The notes under the pieces are model-generated. The model had not been told where the DNA came from, did not search any database, and saw nothing but the letters and a program-made list of their open reading frames with translations. Shown in pieces: positions 1,197 to 11,715 of a DNA stretch of 11,715 nt. This DNA is from Selenomonas sp. (GTDB lineage Bacteria > Bacillota_C > Negativicutes > Selenomonadales > Selenomonadaceae), in contig NZ_JAILKR010000046.1 in NCBI RefSeq assembly GCF_024693525.1, positions 1 to 11,715 of the forward strand, in the 5' to 3' direction. Numbering within the stretch: the first letter of the stretch is position 1; each line of letters opens with the position of its first letter. Position numbers and translations under genes: made by a program.

Positions 1197-1739
1197 TTAG
1201 TCAGTCTTATTTGGTCTGTATGATGAATATTTCTGTAATGCCCCGTCATACACCAGCTTTGTCCGCTCATCAAACAGTACCCACAGTATCTCGTCAAACG
1301 CCTCCGGGTGCTCTTCAGCAACTGCCTTGACTGCCTGTACCGCAACATTCGCTGCCTGCTGCACGGGATAGGAGTACACTCCCGTGGAGATTGATGGGAA
1401 AGCCACGCTACGAATACCATGCTCCATGGCAAGTTCCAGCGAATGCCGATAGCATCCTGCCAATAGCTCCGCCTCGCCATGACTGCCGCCGTTCCATACT
1501 GGCCCTACTGTGTGGATGATGTAGTCGCAAGGCAGTCTGTACGCCTTAGTGATTTTGGCTTGCCCGGTCATGCAGCCATTCAGCGTCCGGCACTCTGCCA
1601 AAAGTTCCGGCCCAGCGGCTCGGTGTATGGCTCCATCCACGCCACCGCCACCAAGCAGGCTCTCATTAGCTGCATTGACAATGGCATCGGCATAATACTT
1701 TGCCGTAATGTCTCCAAGTTCTGTTCTGATAATAGCCAC
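1197..1739 (-). CDS. Macro domain protein, YmdB-like O-acetyl-ADP-ribose deacetylase
   Basis: This 180-residue protein is a complete single macro domain. Visible landmarks are GDIT at 9-12, DAIVNAAN at 18-25, the [10 protein letters not shown] loop at 30-39, HTVGPVW at 76-82 and the second phosphate loop STGVYSYP at 118-125. Together they form the ADP-ribose pocket of the YmdB/MacroD type. Family members hydrolyse O-acetyl-ADP-ribose or remove mono-ADP-ribose from acidic residues, in the cytoplasm; YmdB is also reported to restrain RNase III. The start is GTG at 1739-1737, supported by GGGGGAG about nine bases upstream. The gene follows the ATPase::DinB remnant by 40 bases and precedes the AT-rich orphan, so it is probably co-transcribed with both. 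The fold assignment is secure; the natural substrate is inferred. Confidence 0.95.
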
Positions 1740-3126: not shown

Positions 3127-3783
3127 TCAATTTCTTCTCCTGCGCCGTTTTACATCCTCATCAATCCTGCTCTTCCAGCTTGCAGCCAGCGGAGCCGCGC
3201 AACACCGTACATGATGGATGGCCTCTTCCATGACCTCATAGTTGAGCGCCGTTCCCGCCTCATCGCACTGATAGGTAACCGCCCTGTCAGCATGTATGCC
3301 GATATGGCCTGCCGCCTTGATGGCATCCATATTAGCCCCCAGGAACAGGAACTCCCAGCCGTACTTCTCCTTCTGCCGCTCCACCATCTTCTTAACCTTC
3401 TTGTAAGTATAGCGCCGACTGGCATTCTCCATGCCATCTGTGGTGATGATGAACAGCGTCTTCTCCGGCCTGTCCTCATCACGGGCATACTTGTGAATGT
3501 TACCGATATGGTGAATAGCACCACCTACGGCATCCAGCAGTGCCGTACAGCCACGGACGAAGTAGGTATCCTCCGTCAGCTTTGCCACCTTGTCCATCGG
3601 CACCCTGTCGTGGATGACATCGCAACTATCATCAAACAGCACCGTGGAAACAATAGCCTCTCCTGGCTCCTTCCGCTGCTTCTTAATGAGCGAGTTGAAG
3701 CCGCCGATGGTGTCAGACTCCAAGCCGCTCATGGATCCGCTCCTGTCCAGGATGAATACGATTTCTGTTAAGCCTTTCTTCAT
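3127..3783 (-). CDS. vWA (von Willebrand factor A) domain protein
   Basis: The 218-residue protein is almost only a vWA domain. The metal-ion-dependent adhesion site is intact: DRSGS at 13-17, Thr80 in RGCTALLDA, and Asp116 in TTDGMEN. The Rossmann-type strands are clear, for example EIVFILD and KTLFIITTDG. There is no signal peptide, so it acts inside the cell. It resembles the small cytoplasmic vWA proteins of the TerY type, which act as scaffolds for partner proteins. The C-terminus is strongly basic, ending RRRRRN, and could bind nucleic acid or a partner (inference). ATG at 3783-3781 follows AAGGGGGCG. The upstream promoter module is shared with the adjacent glycohydrolase gene, which implies joint regulation and a common pathway; a terminator lies just downstream. 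Confidence 0.9.
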   Translation of the reverse strand: MKKGLTEIVFILDRSGSMSGLESDTIGGFNSLIKKQRKEPGEAIVSTVLFDDSCDVIHDRVPMDKVAKLTEDTYFVRGCTALLDAVGGAIHHIGNIHKYARDEDRPEKTLFIITTDGMENASRRYTYKKVKKMVERQKEKYGWEFLFLGANMDAIKAAGHIGIHADRAVTYQCDEAGTALNYEVMEEAIHHVRCCAAPLAASWKSRIDEDVKRRRRRN

Positions 3784-3858
3784 TGAAAACGCCCCCTTAT
3801 CTTTGATAGTTTTATTCTACCGAAGATAAGGAGGTGTTTGGTCGCCTGCCATGCGACA
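3784..3858 (-). promoter_or_regulatory. Promoter module of the vWA gene with shared dyad
   Basis: In minus-strand order the module is TGTCGCATGGCAGGCGACC (3858-3840), whose core GTCGC-N7-GCGAC is a perfect dyad. It is followed by 20 bases, then TAGAAT (3819-3814), then 30 bases to the ATG at 3783. The -35 region has no TTGACA-like hexamer, so the dyad abuts where an activator would sit. It matches the module at 4799-4873 with identical spacing. A role as operator/activator site is inferred. Confidence 0.6.
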
Positions 3859-3868
3859 TTTCAAAGGT

Positions 3869-4798
3869 TCATGCTTGCGGGTTGTTGCGGAGATATTCAT
3901 TCACATCAGTAAGCATGGTGTGGAATGCCCTGCGGCCACCATTCTTTGCCGCAATGTACTGTCTCCACCGCCGCAACACATCCTTCAACGGCTCATCAAG
4001 ATAGGAATATGCCTTATCCTTAATCCAATCCGGAATACCATAGGCTGCTTCCGCAATGCTGCCGGTGATGGCTGCCAGCGTATCACTGTCACCACCAATG
4101 GAGATGGCATTTCGTATAGCATCCTCAAAATCAGTGCTTTCCAAAAAAGCTATTATTGCCTGTGGCACGGTGTCCTGACAAGTTTCGTTAAACTGGTAGC
4201 CAGGGCGAATTTCATCTAAGGTACGGGACAAATCGTAACCATACTCTTTCTCGATATGTGCCTTGACACGCCGTTTACATTCTTCCGGGTCATCATTGAT
4301 GGGCTTGCTATAATCGATATAATATCCACCAAAGTTAAAGCGGTTCATGAATATGGCATCGGCAGTAGCCATAGCCCCTTTAATTCCCTCCGGATGGTTA
4401 TGGGTAACCTCCGCAGACAGCCTTGCCCCAGCTCTGCCATTTGACGGCCACATTCCCGTCCTGGCACAAAAACCACAGTCCATAGCCCAGGCACAGGGAG
4501 CCACCCTCATAGCCGAGCCATTGCCAAAGCTGTTATACGGCTCACGACTCTCTGAAAACAACCAAGCTCCAAACCTGCCGCCATAACCAGCCTTCGGATA
4601 CATCCTGCCATATTTCTTCATGGCATCGATAAAGTCATCCCTCTCCCCGCCGTTCATGACAGCTTCAGCCACAGCGCAGGTCATGACCGTATCATCCGTG
4701 AAGAAACAGTCCTCTCGGAATAGCGGGAAATCCTTTGTCTTGATATTGTTCCACTCGTAAACGGAACCTACGATGTCACCAACAATTGCCCCTAGCAT
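3869..4798 (-). CDS. ADP-ribosylglycohydrolase family protein
   Basis: This 309-residue protein is a full-length ADP-ribosylglycohydrolase (DraG/ARH fold), a binuclear Mg2+ enzyme that cleaves ADP-ribose from modified proteins or related conjugates. It opens MLGAIVGDIVGS. The metal-binding motifs are FTDDT at 33-37 and GGDSDT at 235-240. Other conserved segments are SFGNGSAMRVAP at 90-101 and THNHPEGIKGA at 132-142. I chose ATG at 4798-4796 because AAGGAG lies eight bases upstream, and because this start makes its upstream region align without gaps to that of the vWA gene. An in-frame ATG eight codons earlier overlaps the Shine-Dalgarno. It lies between the macro-HTH gene and the vWA gene, so it probably works with the macro proteins on the same ADP-ribosylated target. 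Confidence 0.95.
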   Translation of the reverse strand: MLGAIVGDIVGSVYEWNNIKTKDFPLFREDCFFTDDTVMTCAVAEAVMNGGERDDFIDAMKKYGRMYPKAGYGGRFGAWLFSESREPYNSFGNGSAMRVAPCAWAMDCGFCARTGMWPSNGRAGARLSAEVTHNHPEGIKGAMATADAIFMNRFNFGGYYIDYSKPINDDPEECKRRVKAHIEKEYGYDLSRTLDEIRPGYQFNETCQDTVPQAIIAFLESTDFEDAIRNAISIGGDSDTLAAITGSIAEAAYGIPDWIKDKAYSYLDEPLKDVLRRWRQYIAAKNGGRRAFHTMLTDVNEYLRNNPQA

Positions 4799-4873
4799 AG
4801 CAATCACTCCTTTTTCTTTCATGGTTATATTCTAGCAGAAGCATATTGCGGAGCGGTCGCCTGCCGTGCGACA
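4799..4873 (-). promoter_or_regulatory. Promoter module of the ADP-ribosylglycohydrolase gene with shared dyad
   Basis: TGTCGCACGGCAGGCGACC (4873-4855, minus strand) differs from the vWA copy at one base, inside the spacer of the dyad. It is followed by 20 unrelated bases, TAGAAT (4834-4829) and 30 bases to the ATG at 4798. After the -10 the two modules share a further A/T-rich stretch leading into the Shine-Dalgarno. It begins two bases beyond the stop codon of the upstream macro gene. It has no T-run, so it is unlikely to be a terminator. Confidence 0.65.
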
Positions 4874-4875
4874 AA

Positions 4876-5895
4876 TCAGCAACCAAGGAGTGGTTGCTCA
4901 AAAGCAAAGAGCGTTTCATTGATGGCAAAAATATCATATTCTGCCCGCTGGATGAAGTATTCCACGATTATATCTGCCTTGCTGCTATGGGAGAGTGCAT
5001 AGCCTGCCCTGCCTATGAAGTCCCTCGTCTCATCGAGGTTCAGCTCCAGAGCTACAGCAAAGGCCAGTGCCGTTGACTTGCTTGGCTTATACGCTGGGTT
5101 GTTACGTATCTTCGAGAATAGCTTGCGGTCAACATTGGCTCGTTTATAAACTTCCGGGTCAGTCTTGCCCTTGGCATCAATGAGCCGCAGTAGAGCTTCG
5201 GAGAAGGAATCATCTACCTCTGCCAACAAATCTTCTAAGGAGCGCTTTTTCTTGGGTGCCGGACTAACCGCTTTTGCTATAGGAGCTTCATCCCCCAGAT
5301 ATGACTGCGCCTCAAATAGTCTGCGTCTGCCGCGAAAGTCGCCACTATACTCTTCATCAAGCAGTTCCTCGATGTATCTCTCATCAATGAAACTCTGTAC
5401 ATCTTCAAACAGGCTGCTGGATATCCTGAAAGCCTTCTGGTCAAACACCACAAGGTAGACCTCCATCTCATGCTCACAGAGGAAGTCACGTATAGCCTGG
5501 GTTGCCACCGCTATAGCTATCTCCGATGGGCAACTGAACACTCCTGCAGAAATAAGCGGAAAGGCTATAGAGCCGCAGCCGTTGTCTGTCGCCAGCTGCA
5601 AAGAGTTGACATAGCAGCTTGACAGCAGTTCCCGTTCTCCATGCTTGCCATCCTGCCATACTGGCCCCACTGTGTGGATGACGAACTTAGCCTGAAGGCC
5701 ATAAGCCGGCGTAATCTCTGCCTTACCTGTGGCTATGGCACCGATTTTCTTCCGTGCCGCCAGCAGTTCTGCTCCCGCCGCCTTATGTATCGCCCGGTCA
5801 ACGCCCCCACCCACTATTGGCTTTGGGTTCGCCGTATTGACGATGGCATCCACCTGCATTTTCGTTATGTCGTTACGTACAATTTCTAATGGCAC
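4876..5895 (-). CDS. Macro domain protein with C-terminal helical (HTH-like) domain
   Basis: Residues 1 to about 165 form a macro domain: NDITKMQVDAIVNTANP at 8-24, the VGGGVDRAIH loop at 28-37, HTVGPVW at 74-80 and ISAGVFSCP at 115-123. NTANP replaces the usual NAAN, but the catalytic-loop Asn and the glycine-rich loop remain, so ADP-ribose binding is expected. A charged linker with a PKKKR patch (about 214-218) leads to a helical domain at 228-339. This contains VYKRANVDRKLFSKIRNN and ALAFAVALELNLDETRDF, a pattern like an XRE-type helix-turn-helix. The same two-part architecture is common in Bacillota. It could couple ADP-ribose sensing to DNA binding, making this a candidate regulator of the cassette (inference). 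The start is GTG at 5895-5893 with GGAAG upstream; the preceding gene stops 17 bases before it. Confidence 0.9.
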   Translation of the reverse strand: MPLEIVRNDITKMQVDAIVNTANPKPIVGGGVDRAIHKAAGAELLAARKKIGAIATGKAEITPAYGLQAKFVIHTVGPVWQDGKHGERELLSSCYVNSLQLATDNGCGSIAFPLISAGVFSCPSEIAIAVATQAIRDFLCEHEMEVYLVVFDQKAFRISSSLFEDVQSFIDERYIEELLDEEYSGDFRGRRRLFEAQSYLGDEAPIAKAVSPAPKKKRSLEDLLAEVDDSFSEALLRLIDAKGKTDPEVYKRANVDRKLFSKIRNNPAYKPSKSTALAFAVALELNLDETRDFIGRAGYALSHSSKADIIVEYFIQRAEYDIFAINETLFAFEQPLLGC

Positions 5896-7038: not shown

Positions 7039-7827
7039 CTATGCCACTTCCCCATAAAGCAAAAACACCTCGAAGCCCCTTGTTTCATAGGGTTTCGAGG
7101 TGTTTAGCTCTCTATGTGTTTGTATCAATTCCGCTATGATTTTGTCATAAATGGAAAAAGCAGGTTCCCCCTCCTTGTCTTTGGTCACAATACGCGTGAT
7201 AAGCTCCGAAACCGCCTGTGGCGTGTAGAACTCCCCCGCCTTCTTGCCCGAGCCAGCAGCAAACTGGCCAATCAAAAACTCATACGCATCGCCAAGCGCA
7301 TCCGCGCCATACTGCATGAAATCAATATGCGCCAGCTCCTTCATCACATCCGAAAGCATCGCATTGCGCTTTGCTGGCGTCGTCCCTAGGCTCTTGGAAT
7401 CAATATCAAAGTCCTCGAACAAATCCTCATAAAGCTTCTGCCCGCGGATAGCCTCACCACCCTGCTCAATATCGCGCATAGCCTGACGCAAATGGTCGGT
7501 AGTAAAAGTCTTGTTATTGATTTCATTATATAAAGCCGTAAAAGTATACTGCGGCTCAATCGCAAAGCTGTAATTTTCCTCCAGCTCCGCCTTCAAATCC
7601 TCCCAATCCTCACTCTGCCGCGCTTCCTCATAAAGCAGCTGCGCCTCATCCAAACTCTCCGGCTTCCGATCCTCCAACAGGTCAACCACAGCATAAAGCT
7701 GACGGTCAGACAGATACTTGTAGAAAATCATCCCGAGCAAATAATCCTTATATTCATCCGCACTCATCGTGCTGCGCATAACATTAGCCGCATTCCAAAG
7801 CGCCTGATTCAATTCCTGTGATGCCAT
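7039..7827 (-). pseudogene. hsdM: hsdM, truncated type I restriction-modification methyltransferase subunit
   Basis: The first 228 residues from ATG 7827-7825 (AAAGGTG upstream) match the N-terminal half of HsdM. They include ELNQALWNAANVMR, DYLLGMIFYKYLSD, KRNAMLSDVMKELAHIDF, DALGDAYEFLIG and AGEFYTPQAVSELI. A working protein would follow SIYD with the SAM-binding PTMGSGSL motif and later the NPPF/Y catalytic motif. Here SIYD (ending near 7144) runs directly into KIIAELIQTHREL and stops soon after, so both motifs are lost. Length is about half that of the family. The last residues are encoded by the terminator hairpin, so the tail is the 3' end of what was once a longer operon. A deletion that removed the rest of hsdM, hsdS and possibly hsdR is the simplest explanation. 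It cannot methylate DNA. Confidence 0.85.
7058..7105 (-). terminator. Strong rho-independent terminator inside the 3' end of truncated hsdM
   Basis: The arms 7063-7078 and 7090-7105 pair over 16 bases with only one G-U pair, around an 11-base loop. On the minus strand the stem ends in GGTGTTTTTGC, a good T-run. It closes the Schlafen-AIPR-hsdM transcript. The reading frame of truncated hsdM passes through both arms, which shows that the tail is not ancestral coding sequence. Confidence 0.9.
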
Positions 7828-7872
7828 CTGTAAATTCACCTTTCATCATCTCTATACAGAAAATGTATAAAT

Positions 7873-9603
7873 TTATTCGACCAGACTATTTTTTTCGATA
7901 TCATTTTTATCTAAACATTCATCAATTTTTTTGATAAATTCGCTACTCTTAGCCACGCTGCTGTTTCCGCCTAAATTTATGTATTTCGAATATATTATTT
8001 TTTTTAGATAATCTATATCATCATTTGTTACCGATAATACATTTGCATTTTTCATATCATCAAATGTAACATACTTCTTATTAAAAAGCCTTACAGAAAC
8101 AGCATATATTAAATAATATAATATATCCGTTCGTTCTCCGCTTGTCATCTCTGATGTCTTAGCTAAATTATCTCTTATCCGAGCTCCTATCAACGCCGTA
8201 TTGTAGTATACACTCAAATCAACATTTGATTCATATAGCTTTTTATATGTATCATCATCAGTTAATAATGTAGATGGCCTAGCCCTAGCAAAATCAGGTT
8301 TCCTAAGGAATATACTAATCATACACTGAGCTAAAAATGATACGCTTATAATTTCCGATGCTTTTTTCTTTTTATTTTTATAATAATTTTTTCGTCTATC
8401 ATAATATAGCCCCCTCCTTTTAAAGTACATTTCTATTTGTAAATGAATTATATCTGTAACTCTTAACGAAGACTTCGGAATATTGGTTTGATTATTCGTT
8501 GCAAATATAATTTTATCTCTAGCTTCTTCAGAAGACGGTACGATAATCCTAACTAAAACATTTCTTGTTTCTTGTTTTATCAACTGCTGATTTTCAGAAA
8601 AGAAATTATATATTTCCGTAGAAGTTTGCAATCCATTAACCACTGCTGGATTCGTAATATTATACTCATCAATTCTTATAGGGACTATATTATCGGCCAA
8701 AATTGTTATACCGTTATTCAACCACCAAAAATCTTCTCCAGTTGATGCCTTTAAACTTTCTGCAATGCTTGTATTTACAGAATTTTTCCCTTGATAATCT
8801 CTAACATTCGATTCGAAGAATTTAGCTCTAAGCCGGCCATTTTCATCTGTTATAAACGTATAATATTCTCTCAAATTAACTAGTGCAACATACTCTGAAT
8901 TTTTTCCTCTTGATATCGGATTTCCTGCGAATTTTAGAGGTAACACATTTTCTACATCTGTATTGTATAATTCCATAAGCTTGTCTGCTGTTATAAAATC
9001 GACATCCACCTGTGCAGAACAATAAAGTTCATTAACAATCTCCCGCAATTCATCAGCTTGTGCTTTGACATTAGGGTTCACATCAATGCCTAAAGTTGTA
9101 TAATAATAATTAATAAATATTTTAGGTTGTTTTGTAACTAGTTTAGTAACTGCATTTCTAAACAAACAAAACAAATCAATAACCTGCTCTGTATAACGTT
9201 TTTTATCTCGATAGATTGAAAAATCCTTCGTCATATCTAAAAGATTTCTCGAAACAGTCTTCCATTTCATTAGTACATCTTCGCCAAAACTTGTGGTCAT
9301 TTTAGCTTGAACTATTACAAAATTTATTTCAGCTCCTTTAGGTGCTGTTAAACTATCTAGTTGGTCTTCTGAAATTAATTCATTATTAACAAACAAATAA
9401 ATCCCATCACATCCGCCATCATTTCCGCCTCCTGTAATGCCAGAATTAATTTCTTCGTCACTTAACTCTTTATCTTTCAAAACTTGCGCTGTTGAAAAAA
9501 ATTCAAAAAAGGCATTTTCCGAATCATACATTTCATTTTCCGAAAATTCTTGCCTAATGATTTCTTTTAATAATATTTGATTATTGGTTTGTTTTTTCGC
9601 CAT
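7873..9603 (-). CDS. AIPR family abortive infection protein with predicted PD-(D/E)xK nuclease domain
   Basis: This 576-residue protein has the hallmarks of the AIPR (abortive infection phage resistance) family: FESNVRDYQG at 263-272, FWWLNNGITI at 292-301, VVNGLQTSTEI at 321-331 and TNNQTNIP at 369-376. The N-terminal ~120 residues look like a restriction-endonuclease fold. NDGGCDGIYL at 61-70 supplies Asp66, and a strand ending VIVQAK (96-101) supplies the Q-x-K of a D...(E/Q)xK site. Such proteins act in the cytoplasm and are thought to block phage growth, probably by nucleic-acid cleavage (inference for this one). ATG 9603-9601 is chosen because GGAGG lies eight bases before it; an ATG seven codons earlier lacks a site. 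The gene is markedly AT-rich and sits 69 bases after the Schlafen-type gene and 45 bases before the hsdM remnant. Confidence 0.88.
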   Translation of the reverse strand: MAKKQTNNQILLKEIIRQEFSENEMYDSENAFFEFFSTAQVLKDKELSDEEINSGITGGGNDGGCDGIYLFVNNELISEDQLDSLTAPKGAEINFVIVQAKMTTSFGEDVLMKWKTVSRNLLDMTKDFSIYRDKKRYTEQVIDLFCLFRNAVTKLVTKQPKIFINYYYTTLGIDVNPNVKAQADELREIVNELYCSAQVDVDFITADKLMELYNTDVENVLPLKFAGNPISRGKNSEYVALVNLREYYTFITDENGRLRAKFFESNVRDYQGKNSVNTSIAESLKASTGEDFWWLNNGITILADNIVPIRIDEYNITNPAVVNGLQTSTEIYNFFSENQQLIKQETRNVLVRIIVPSSEEARDKIIFATNNQTNIPKSSLRVTDIIHLQIEMYFKRRGLYYDRRKNYYKNKKKKASEIISVSFLAQCMISIFLRKPDFARARPSTLLTDDDTYKKLYESNVDLSVYYNTALIGARIRDNLAKTSEMTSGERTDILYYLIYAVSVRLFNKKYVTFDDMKNANVLSVTNDDIDYLKKIIYSKYINLGGNSSVAKSSEFIKKIDECLDKNDIEKNSLVE

Positions 9604-9672
9604 TATATTTTCCTCCAACTCCATATCTACTCAAAATCACACAAAATTTGTTCATATTCTCTTCTTTTATCA

Positions 9673-11091
9673 TTACTCAGTTATCTCCCAATATCCCCCG
9701 CGAGCAGCACCGCACCTGATAAGAATTCCTTTTTCACGCAACTCTTTTATATGTCTTTCTGTTGTCCGCTTTGAAACACCTATTACTTCTGCTAATTGGG
9801 TTGCAGATATAGTTTTGTCGGCTTTTATGGCTTCAATAATCTTCTCCTGTATATTACCGCCAATCACCGCCACATCACCGTCATTCACCGCCATTTCACC
9901 GCCATTTGTGGTATTAGCGTCGTTCTCCTGTCCCTCAACGTAATTCAAATTATACAATATCAGCAGGAAATCCTTATGCTCTGCCATGAATTTTGGCATC
10001 AGTTCAGCTGTCGTATGCTCTTGGAAGTCGTAATCTTCCAGTATTTTCTTGAAGCCGCTGCCTCTGCGCTCCATTAGTTGCAACCTGCTAAACACATCAG
10101 CCAGAACTGGATTCCTGCGCTGGGACGATATATGCCGTAGGTCGCGCCCCTCCAGAGAAGAACCATCCACCATTCCACCAGGGGAGTAAATCTCCATACG
10201 GTCATCGAAGATGTCAATATGGACCTCACTGCCGACTATCAGATAGTCGCGATGAATCAAGGCATTGACCAATCCCTCCATCACAGCACGCTTAGGATAG
10301 TCCGGATATTCAATTCTATGAGTAGGTGTTTTCCGCCATGCTTTCCTGTTATGGCGCATGATAAAACTCAGCGCATCTTGATAAAGGGAAATCAGTCCAC
10401 CTGAATACTCCTCATCATCGATGGCATCCATCAAACCAGATGCTTTGGATAATCCATTCCATCTGGTACAGAATACCCGCGAATGCCTTACGGGTGATTC
10501 ATCAGCCAGCAAAGCGCCGGCATTCGTCAGTTTGCCATTGTAATCAACCAAGCCAAAGGATTCAAAGTCCGTCTCTTCAAAGGATTTTCCTGTTCTTTGC
10601 TTGTAGACAGAGCGCAGTTTCGTAAAGGCCATATCCTCAAACTTGAACCGCGACGGCAAGCTGTCATAGCTCTGCCCGCTTCCTCGGATTACCAGCTCAC
10701 GCAGCTGCATGGGATTTGCTGGTACGCTTTCGTTTCCCAAACGCACAAAGGCCACCAACTGCCCTTCACCAGAATAATAGTATGGCGTCTCATCACCGGT
10801 CATGACTTCAACGATTATCAGTTCTTTACCATCCACCGCTTCAAACGATAATTTGAATTTTGGGATTGGATTCATGCGATTCTTAATCGTCTCACTAATT
10901 ATTTCCGCATCTGCCCTGGCATTTTCCAGCCCAATTATCGTATCATCATCACGAATACCAAAAATCAGCTTACCGCCAAAGGTATTAGCAAATGCACTAA
11001 TGCTTTTCAACCAGCTCTTTGGCTTCTTCACTTCCAAAGACTGTTTTTTATCATATTCCGTTGCTTCTCCAATTAAATCTCTAATGTTCAT
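9673..11091 (-). CDS. Schlafen/AlbA_2-type ATP-binding protein with C-terminal helix-turn-helix
   Basis: The order of domains in this 472-residue protein is clear. The AlbA_2 (Schlafen AAA_4) domain covers about 10-125, with Glu20 and SAFANTFGGKLIFGIRDDD at 32-50. An ATP-binding GHKL-like segment follows, with NALIHRDY at 276-283, DDRMEIYSPGG at 296-306 and ERRGSGF at 341-347. A low-complexity linker at about 386-413 leads to a winged helix at 415-460, with SATQLAEVIGVSKRTTERHIKEL as recognition unit. Such proteins are often annotated as ATP-binding or transcriptional regulators and are frequent in type I restriction-modification loci. Here it heads the run leading to AIPR and hsdM and may regulate that transcript or act in defence (inference). 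ATG 11091-11089 has AAGGG about nine bases upstream. Confidence 0.9.
   Translation of the reverse strand: MNIRDLIGEATEYDKKQSLEVKKPKSWLKSISAFANTFGGKLIFGIRDDDTIIGLENARADAEIISETIKNRMNPIPKFKLSFEAVDGKELIIVEVMTGDETPYYYSGEGQLVAFVRLGNESVPANPMQLRELVIRGSGQSYDSLPSRFKFEDMAFTKLRSVYKQRTGKSFEETDFESFGLVDYNGKLTNAGALLADESPVRHSRVFCTRWNGLSKASGLMDAIDDEEYSGGLISLYQDALSFIMRHNRKAWRKTPTHRIEYPDYPKRAVMEGLVNALIHRDYLIVGSEVHIDIFDDRMEIYSPGGMVDGSSLEGRDLRHISSQRRNPVLADVFSRLQLMERRGSGFKKILEDYDFQEHTTAELMPKFMAEHKDFLLILYNLNYVEGQENDANTTNGGEMAVNDGDVAVIGGNIQEKIIEAIKADKTISATQLAEVIGVSKRTTERHIKELREKGILIRCGAARGGYWEITE
9856..9908 (-). repeat. 21-base tandem repeat in the Schlafen-type linker
   Basis: On the plus strand the core ACCGYCA starts at 9856, 9866, 9877, 9887 and 9898, alternating 10- and 11-base steps. 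Two steps make 21 bases, or seven codons, so copy number can change without a frameshift. The protein repeat is visible as GGEMAVNDGDVAVIGGN between the ATP-binding part and the HTH. Confidence 0.75.
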
Positions 11092-11385
11092 AAAATCTAT
11101 CCCTTGCCCTTCATCCTATCCATTTACTCACGATATAGGCAATCCACGCATATAAAGAGTCGGCCATATCGAAATGGCCAACTCCAATTTTTGCTGTTTT
11201 TCCAGCACTTATTATTTTATCATAGTTCAGCGTAATATAACACCTTACAGCTCATAATCGAAAAGCAGGCGCCTATTCTAATTTTGTAAAATTGTATGTC
11301 GCATATGCAGGTACATAAAACCACAGCGTTGAATTAGAATACTATCGACACATGACATATACGCCCGACAAAGGAGCGAAAACCT
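11092..11385. promoter_or_regulatory. Divergent intergenic region between the Schlafen-type and FIST genes
   Basis: These 294 bases must hold promoters in both directions. A perfect 10-base inverted repeat, TATTCTAATT (11274-11283) and AATTAGAATA (11332-11341), places a TAGAAT -10-like box on each strand facing outward, towards its own gene. Between the arms are TGTCGCAT (11297-11304), matching the shared dyad start of the ADP-ribose genes, and a GCATATGC palindrome (11301-11308). The -35 hexamers are poor. The part from 11092 to 11156 has no recognisable structure. No riboswitch consensus was seen upstream of the FIST gene. Confidence 0.45.
11157..11195. terminator. Hairpin with T-run, terminator or leader attenuator
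   Basis: GAGT-C-GGCCAT (11157-11167) pairs with ATGGCC-A-ACTC (11174-11184), a 10-bp stem with one C/A mismatch and a 6-base loop. On the plus strand CAATTTTTGC follows, the form of an intrinsic terminator; on the minus strand the T-run is shorter (TTTATAT). No plus-strand gene ends here, so it may block antisense reading or lie in the 5' leader of the Schlafen-type gene as an attenuator. Confidence 0.6.
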
Positions 11386-11715
11386 ATGCTTCAGAAAAAA
11401 TATGTGTTTCATACATTTGATGAACTAAAGGACATTGCCACCGAGATAACGTCCAGCAATGCTTATAGAAATGCGTCCGGCGTTCTTTTCCAGCTCTACA
11501 ATCCCAAGATTGACGCCGCTGATGAGGAAATAATCACATACCTTCATGATGCCTGTGAAAAAGCCTGTCTCGTAGGGCTTACCTGCGCCAATATCGCAGA
11601 TCAGGAATTTGATATCAAGGATGAGCCCATCGAGCTGAATGTCACCTATTTTCGCACCACAAGGGTTCTGGCCTTTGACTTTGATATGAACCATGAAACC
11701 GGGTTCGTGGCGGGG
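11386..11715 (+). CDS. FIST-domain sensor protein, N-terminal part
   Basis: An open frame from ATG 11386, with AAAGGAG ten bases upstream, stays open to the window edge (110 codons). It starts MLQKKYVFHTFDELKDIA, then has GVLFQLYNPKIDAADEEIITYL, KACLVGLTCANIADQEF and VTYFRTTRVLAFDFD. This matches the start of the FIST N domain, a sensory domain in bacterial signal proteins thought to bind small ligands. In this group of bacteria such domains often precede GGDEF or other cyclic-di-GMP modules; the output domain here lies outside the window. It is the only plus-strand gene, has higher GC than the AIPR gene, and probably marks the chromosomal backbone at the edge of the accessory block. Confidence 0.75.
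   Translation, partial: MLQKKYVFHTFDELKDIATEITSSNAYRNASGVLFQLYNPKIDAADEEIITYLHDACEKACLVGLTCANIADQEFDIKDEPIELNVTYFRTTRVLAFDFDMNHETGFVAG

Follow-up and report, generated by a model that had tools for sequence, protein, structure and literature searches.

The window analysed here is a stretch of 11,715 nucleotides from a Selenomonas sp. (contig NZ_JAILKR010000046.1), and our subject is a promoter module that precedes two of its minus-strand genes, together with the adjacent gene whose product we propose as the regulator. The vWA-domain gene (3127–3783, ATG at 3783) was assigned from a VWA_CoxE match (E 5.5e-5), which is below the Pfam cut-off, and from the clusters of first genes described below. 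The second gene (3869–4798) encodes an ADP-ribosylglycohydrolase (PF03747, E 2.3e-32). Its open reading frame (ORF) has an alternative ATG at 4822, within the leader; the start at 4798 has a ribosome-binding site and agrees with the start in relatives. The proposed regulator gene (4876–5895, minus strand) ends just before the ADP-ribosylglycohydrolase promoter and encodes a macro domain (PF01661, E 1.6e-37) followed by a C-terminal Cro/C1-like helix-turn-helix (HTH) domain (4879–5253); we refer to its product as the macro-HTH protein.

On the minus strand, both the vWA and the ADP-ribosylglycohydrolase genes are preceded by TGTCGCAYGGCAGGCGACC, followed by 20 bases, TAGAAT, 30 bases and the ATG. 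For the ADP-ribosylglycohydrolase gene, these elements are the operator box TGTCGCACGGCAGGCGACC (4855–4873), the fixed-length 20-base spacer (4835–4854), ending in the TGC of an extended −10, and the −10 TAGAAT (4829–4834). For the vWA gene they are the box TGTCGCATGGCAGGCGACC (3840–3858), the 20-base spacer (3820–3839) and the −10 TAGAAT (3814–3819). All were recognised by reading the sequence, the boxes also by a scan and, for the ADP-ribosylglycohydrolase gene, by comparison with relatives; the dyad centre is at −42 in both. Between the two modules, the box matches at 18 of 19 positions, the spacer at 5 of 20, the −10 at 6 of 6 and the leader at 20 of 30, and the geometry given in the initial annotation, with a single difference in the box, was exact. 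Scanning the window with GTCGCNNGGCAGGCGAC and up to three mismatches returned four matches, i.e. the two modules on both strands, against a mean of 0.12 in 200 shuffled sequences. No further box was found elsewhere in the window at this threshold, and each promoter has one dyad. A degenerate TGTCGC half-site at 11288–11331 (plus strand), with three mismatches in the other half and TAGAAT 19 bases on, before an ORF at 11386, was spotted by eye and missed by the scan; it is not significant and was not counted.

The module was then sought as TGTCGC-N7-GCGACC-N(18 to 22)-TANNNT, with the reversed pattern as control, in three sets of genomes (n=250, 291 and 151) representing the classes of an Acidaminococcaceae, a Lachnospiraceae and a Streptococcus genome, which we infer to be Negativicutes, Clostridia and Bacilli. 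It was present in 69 of 250, 62 of 291 and 14 of 151 genomes, respectively. With 16 second registers (N=22) of sites also matching at N=20 removed, a step that favours 20, there were 129 modules against 7 reversed-control matches in the first set and 73 against 5 in the second. Spacers of 18 to 22 bases were permitted; 117 modules of the first set and 68 of the second (185 of 202 together) had exactly 20. A spacer of 19 occurred in 10 and 4 modules, and 2 and 1 had some other length. Of the 14 matches in the third set, 12 had a 20-base spacer. Searching for the box alone, without the −10, extended the count to at least 91 of the 250 genomes with a sizeable reversed-pattern background, and this search was not used.

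Alignment of 180 different modules with a 20-base spacer gave the consensus GTCGC(C/T)TG-N-CAGGCGAC, a palindrome of 17 base pairs (bp) whose centre lies 30 bases ahead of the first base of the −10, i.e. at −42. TGn is preferred directly ahead of the −10, as in extended −10 promoters, and the remaining spacer bases are almost random. No −35 element is recognisable in the module promoters. A site near −42, a fixed distance to the −10 and a poor −35 are the features of class II activator promoters. The initial annotation, starting from the two promoters of the window, had read the spacing as constrained and the missing −35, with the position of the dyad, as pointing to an activator site. Both proposals gain comparative support, the first from the predominance of 20 bases over near-random spacers, the second from the −42 centre before an extended −10, and the motif recurs in relatives upstream of many genes, far beyond the window.

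The genes behind the modules were clustered by single linkage for 160 of 177 selected regions plus 11 loci, giving 178 modules, 169 of them with an assigned first gene; one six-member cluster contains doubtful ORFs. The commonest first gene was that for the vWA protein (107 of 169). The ADP-ribosylglycohydrolase gene came first in 7 of 169 and is a minority target, as is PARG; further targets are Vsr, HsdR-like, SIMPL, phosphoesterase and Sel1 genes and the genes of an RtcB operon. The earlier suggestion of a regulon for ADP-ribose processing genes thus holds for ADP-ribosylglycohydrolase and PARG, and fails to describe the vWA gene, which is the usual target, or genes such as Vsr, HsdR-like and SIMPL. 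The gene for the HTH domain itself lies 65 bases after the box in one locus (L269) and 270–459 bases after it in three others (L279, L289 and L297). A box also stands ahead of a gene in L283 (1384–1974, plus strand) whose small product matches the C-terminal domain of the RNA polymerase alpha subunit (PF03118, E 1.9e-20).

The best relatives of the window locus came from Selenomonas ruminantium and other Selenomonadaceae or Selenomonadales; the box scan covered 98 loci, and the upstream sequences were read for 19 of 80 relatives. A box stands 19 or 20 bases before the −10 of the ADP-ribosylglycohydrolase gene in 11 of 11 loci from Selenomonadaceae or Selenomonadales (L019–L028 and L091), with a single base change in L024 and L025. 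No box was seen directly upstream of this gene in eight other loci read, two of which (L029 and L085) have boxes at other places. One locus (L022) has the two target genes about 4 kb apart, each of which retains its own box. In four loci from Lachnospiraceae or similar bacteria (L029, L031, L032 and L074), the box of the vWA gene is followed by 20 bases and then by TATGCT or TATCCT.

The C-terminal domain of the macro-HTH protein, with the helix motif DRKLFSKI, is barely visible to sequence searches. Its Cro/C1 match (HTH_26, E 0.043) is below the Pfam threshold, no sequence relatives were found in the PDB at E≤1, and NCBIfam and PADLOC gave no name for it. The domain was delineated from an alignment (A2) of 20 C-terminal stretches, an AlphaFold2 model, fold comparison and the covariation described below. 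The model has a helical HTH fold of the Cro/C1 (XRE) type and resembles SinR, C.Esp1396I and 434 Cro. In three loci (L160, L170 and L171), the box-adjacent gene is without the macro domain and retains the C-terminal stretch.

The A2 profile was run on the same genomes as the box search. It was built from box-linked domains, most of them from the first set, one from the second (L142) and none from the third. In the first set, among the matches listed, which leave out the eight weakest, the domain was found at E≤1e-20 in 67 of 69 box genomes and in 21 of 181 box-less genomes (Fisher 2.5e-39), and in the second, at E≤1e-10, in 58 of 62 and 27 of 229 (Fisher 4.9e-35); these values assume that genomes are independent, which they are not. 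For the third set the figures, also at E≤1e-10, were 11 of 14 and 2 of 137. In the first and second sets, respectively, 60 of 69 and 54 of 62 box genomes have the domain no more than 3 kb from a box. Counted by module, 50 of 129 and 44 of 73 have the end of a same-strand domain in the 200 bp upstream, and for 24 and 17 the contig contains no domain among the matches listed. Since the box co-occurs with an HTH domain that is usually fused to an ADP-ribose-binding domain, the macro-HTH protein is the likely regulator, as had been guessed in the initial annotation, a guess to which the covariation adds.

Other arrangements also occur. In five clostridial stretches (L366, L367, L368, L370 and L371), a macro-less domain protein is divergent from the box and the vWA gene, and these proteins form a clade with that of L305 (support 98/84). 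In the third class, a domain ORF of 161–187 residues is divergently placed beside the box in five genomes (G560, G591, G616, G648 and G690). The domain tree has few columns and its loose macro/no-macro label also catches cut ORFs, and only two of its clades were used, the divergent one and the Lys-type one described next.

Twenty stretches around domain genes without an adjacent exact box were examined. A one-mismatch box exactly 20 bases from a −10 was found in five (L409, L411, L413, L414 and L425), a two-mismatch box in two (L421 and L428) and a one-mismatch box distant from the domain in L410; the scan for mismatched boxes was negative in the other twelve. Three of these twelve (L418, L419 and L424), with Lys-type domains, have a perfect dyad of a second kind, GGTTGC-N7-GCAACC, 20 bases before TATAAT. 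Searched for with the same N(18 to 22)-TANNNT, this second box was present in 13 of the first 250 genomes, with 6 matches of the reversed control; 12 of the 13 have the HTH domain, among the matches listed, and 18 of 20 distinct dyads are at 20 bases.

The two boxes go with different residues in the domain. At GTCGC modules, the second position of the aligned helix motif is Arg in all 104 readable domain rows, and at GGTTGC-N7-GCAACC modules it is Lys in all 8 rows (6 proteins), the rows being taken from overlapping stretches in which some proteins are counted more than once. The Lys-type motifs are DKALFSKI, DKAVFSKI, TKSHFAKI, TKETFSKI and TKTHFSKI. The second pattern was derived from three of the six proteins (those of L418, L419 and L424), and the other three (G002, G091 and G123) are new. 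Exceptions are L411, with Ser at this position, G199, with a second-type box and its sole domain match on another contig, and G097, with a second-type box and no domain. The covariation is the pattern to be expected if the aligned helix reads the box. The second operator, 20 bases before the −10, adjoins Lys-type HTH paralogues in L418, L419, L424 and L429–L452. A third operator type may be represented in L420 and L421, where SKEHFAKI paralogues adjoin an imperfect dyad of the type TGT(A/T)GC, which likewise precedes TATAAT by 20 bases.

We consider the best explanation, and a probable one, to be that the macro-HTH protein is a one-component activator of a macro-XRE type that probably senses ADP-ribose. 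Each box would be the operator of a sigma-70-type promoter that has a −10 and is without a recognisable −35. As a dimer, the Cro/C1-like HTH domain would bind the 17-bp palindrome centred at −42 and, by contacting RNA polymerase at that fixed position, would turn transcription on. It is almost certain that the promoter site is functional. That the HTH domain binds the box is very likely, given the sequence patterns above, and we are fairly confident that the effect would be activation rather than repression.

The alternative that survives best, which we nevertheless regard as unlikely, is that the same protein represses from the same box. The −35 region of the extended −10 promoter lies within the dyad (−51 to −33), from which the ligand would release the protein; Cro/C1-type proteins are often repressors. 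The regulators predicted for comparable ADP-ribosylglycohydrolase systems in section 3.8 of PMC9503650 are likewise negative. A blocking site, however, needs no exact distance to the −10, yet that distance is kept in the great majority of modules (185 of 202). Promoters without a −35 usually need help, which also speaks for activation.

Far less probable is that the box is bound by another regulator, e.g. a WYL-domain protein, with the macro-HTH protein as no more than a co-regulated neighbour. A WYL/WCX gene stands immediately before a box in L134, and WYL proteins are among the regulators predicted for ADP-ribosylglycohydrolase systems in the same section of PMC9503650. A relative of the L134 protein was found in 6 of 15 genomes (E≤1e-5, a single-sequence query by which distant WYL proteins could be missed), with none in the box genomes G002, G007, G009, G010 and G011, and it is the HTH domain whose helix covaries with the operator; a WYL protein as the general binder is unsupported. 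The idea that the dyad is a terminator, an RNA hairpin or a dispersed repeat without a promoter role draws on its frequent start just past the macro-HTH stop codon, where a terminator would sit, and on the reversed-pattern background of the box without a −10, and was rejected as scarcely credible given the fixed −10 distance despite unrelated spacers, the counts of the reversed control (7 and 5, with 129 and 73 modules) and the many unrelated genes that boxes precede, so that the repeat unlinked to gene starts against which the initial annotation had warned is not what was found.

In the proposed macro-HTH activator, the candidate sensor is the macro domain, which was compared with the MacroD type; Pfam and NCBIfam show only this domain and no Nudix sensor in the protein. 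The Asp of the GGGVD motif is the catalytic residue of MacroD. Among 49 proteins fitting the macro motif pattern, 29 have D at this position, 19 have C and one has N; 20 further macro-like proteins outside the pattern were unscored. Loss of the Asp in a good part of the family is more in keeping with a reader than with an enzyme. The macro domain would be the likely sensing part, with ADP-ribose or a relative a slight favourite as the compound bound, and ADP-ribosylation would consequently turn on the vWA and ADP-ribosylglycohydrolase genes. Three observations tell against the proposed ADP-ribose-sensing activator or its breadth. The window protein retains the GGGVD Asp, as an enzyme rather than a sensor might. 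The Lys forms cluster in the domain tree (100/97), and their covariation with the second box may therefore be a single event. In the third class the 14 modules compare with 9 reversed-control matches, a raw count barely above background that proves little alone.

Further genes were noted in and near such loci. A second macro-domain gene in the window (1197–1739, minus strand, E 5.4e-48) is stand-alone, without an HTH domain. In S. ruminantium ATCC 12561 (L136, 10928–12186, minus strand), a sirtuin-like gene was seen by eye to adjoin a stand-alone macro gene about 3 kb from the box-bearing cluster. The remaining minus-strand features of the window are two overlapping ORFs in different frames with Y-family DNA polymerase-like parts, which by eye look frame-disrupted (1780–2809); a short HsdM-like ORF with HsdM_N and only the start of N6_Mtase, an apparent type I methyltransferase remnant (7039–7839); an AIPR protein matching AbiU of PADLOC (E 5.8e-187), a candidate phage-defence gene (7873–9624); and a Schlafen/AlbA_2 protein with a RecG-C-like domain and a winged helix (9673–11091).

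At PRM, lambda cI, like class II activators, uses an operator near −42, a 17-bp dyad and a fixed spacing to the −10, all of which the module shares; unlike cI, the window regulator would be a one-component protein with a macro domain, and no cooperative operator array was seen. The restriction-modification controller (C) proteins are comparable in their Cro/C1-type dimer, upstream palindrome and similar HTH fold: according to PMC4041747, C proteins such as C.Esp1396I act as a small dimer of this type, which sits on a palindromic site ahead of the promoter and recruits the sigma subunit. C promoters, however, have two adjacent operators forming a switch, whereas the window promoters have a single dyad each rather than a tandem pair, and the regulator described here is usually macro-fused, with different targets.

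In section 3.8 of PMC9503650, ADP-ribosylglycohydrolase systems of actinobacteria, planctomycetes and proteobacteria that include vWA partners are predicted to be under Nudix or WYL repressors. Like these systems and NrtR, the present one has a regulator whose sensor may be ADP-ribose-related next to ADP-ribosylglycohydrolase, macro and vWA genes; it differs in its proposed macro sensor, Cro/C1-like HTH, Bacillota hosts and activator geometry. By this analogy, the macro-XRE system would be the Bacillota counterpart of the Nudix/WYL systems, with a macro sensor and activator geometry. No description of a macro-domain/XRE regulator was found in the open-access literature searched, and the bacterial control of ADP-ribosylation systems is called largely unexplored in a 2023 review (PMC10789625).

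On balance, we lean towards the view that bacteria have a third, so far unrecognised, kind of ADP-ribose-responsive regulator, which would combine a macro sensor with a Cro/C1-like activator in three classes of Bacillota. It would follow a code of Arg with GTCGC-N7-GCGAC and Lys with GTTGC-N7-GCAAC, 20 bases before the −10, and have the vWA gene as core target, with ADP-ribosylglycohydrolase, PARG, Vsr or an RtcB operon added in particular lineages and macro-less clades that have kept the operator. With this code, individual target genes can be predicted, and the exchange of Arg for Lys, matching the C-to-T change in the operator, lends itself to a specificity experiment. If the proposal is true, proteins now named 'macro domain-containing protein' or O-acetyl-ADP-ribose deacetylase would be transcription regulators, and would offer a direct route into how bacteria control their ADP-ribosylation systems.
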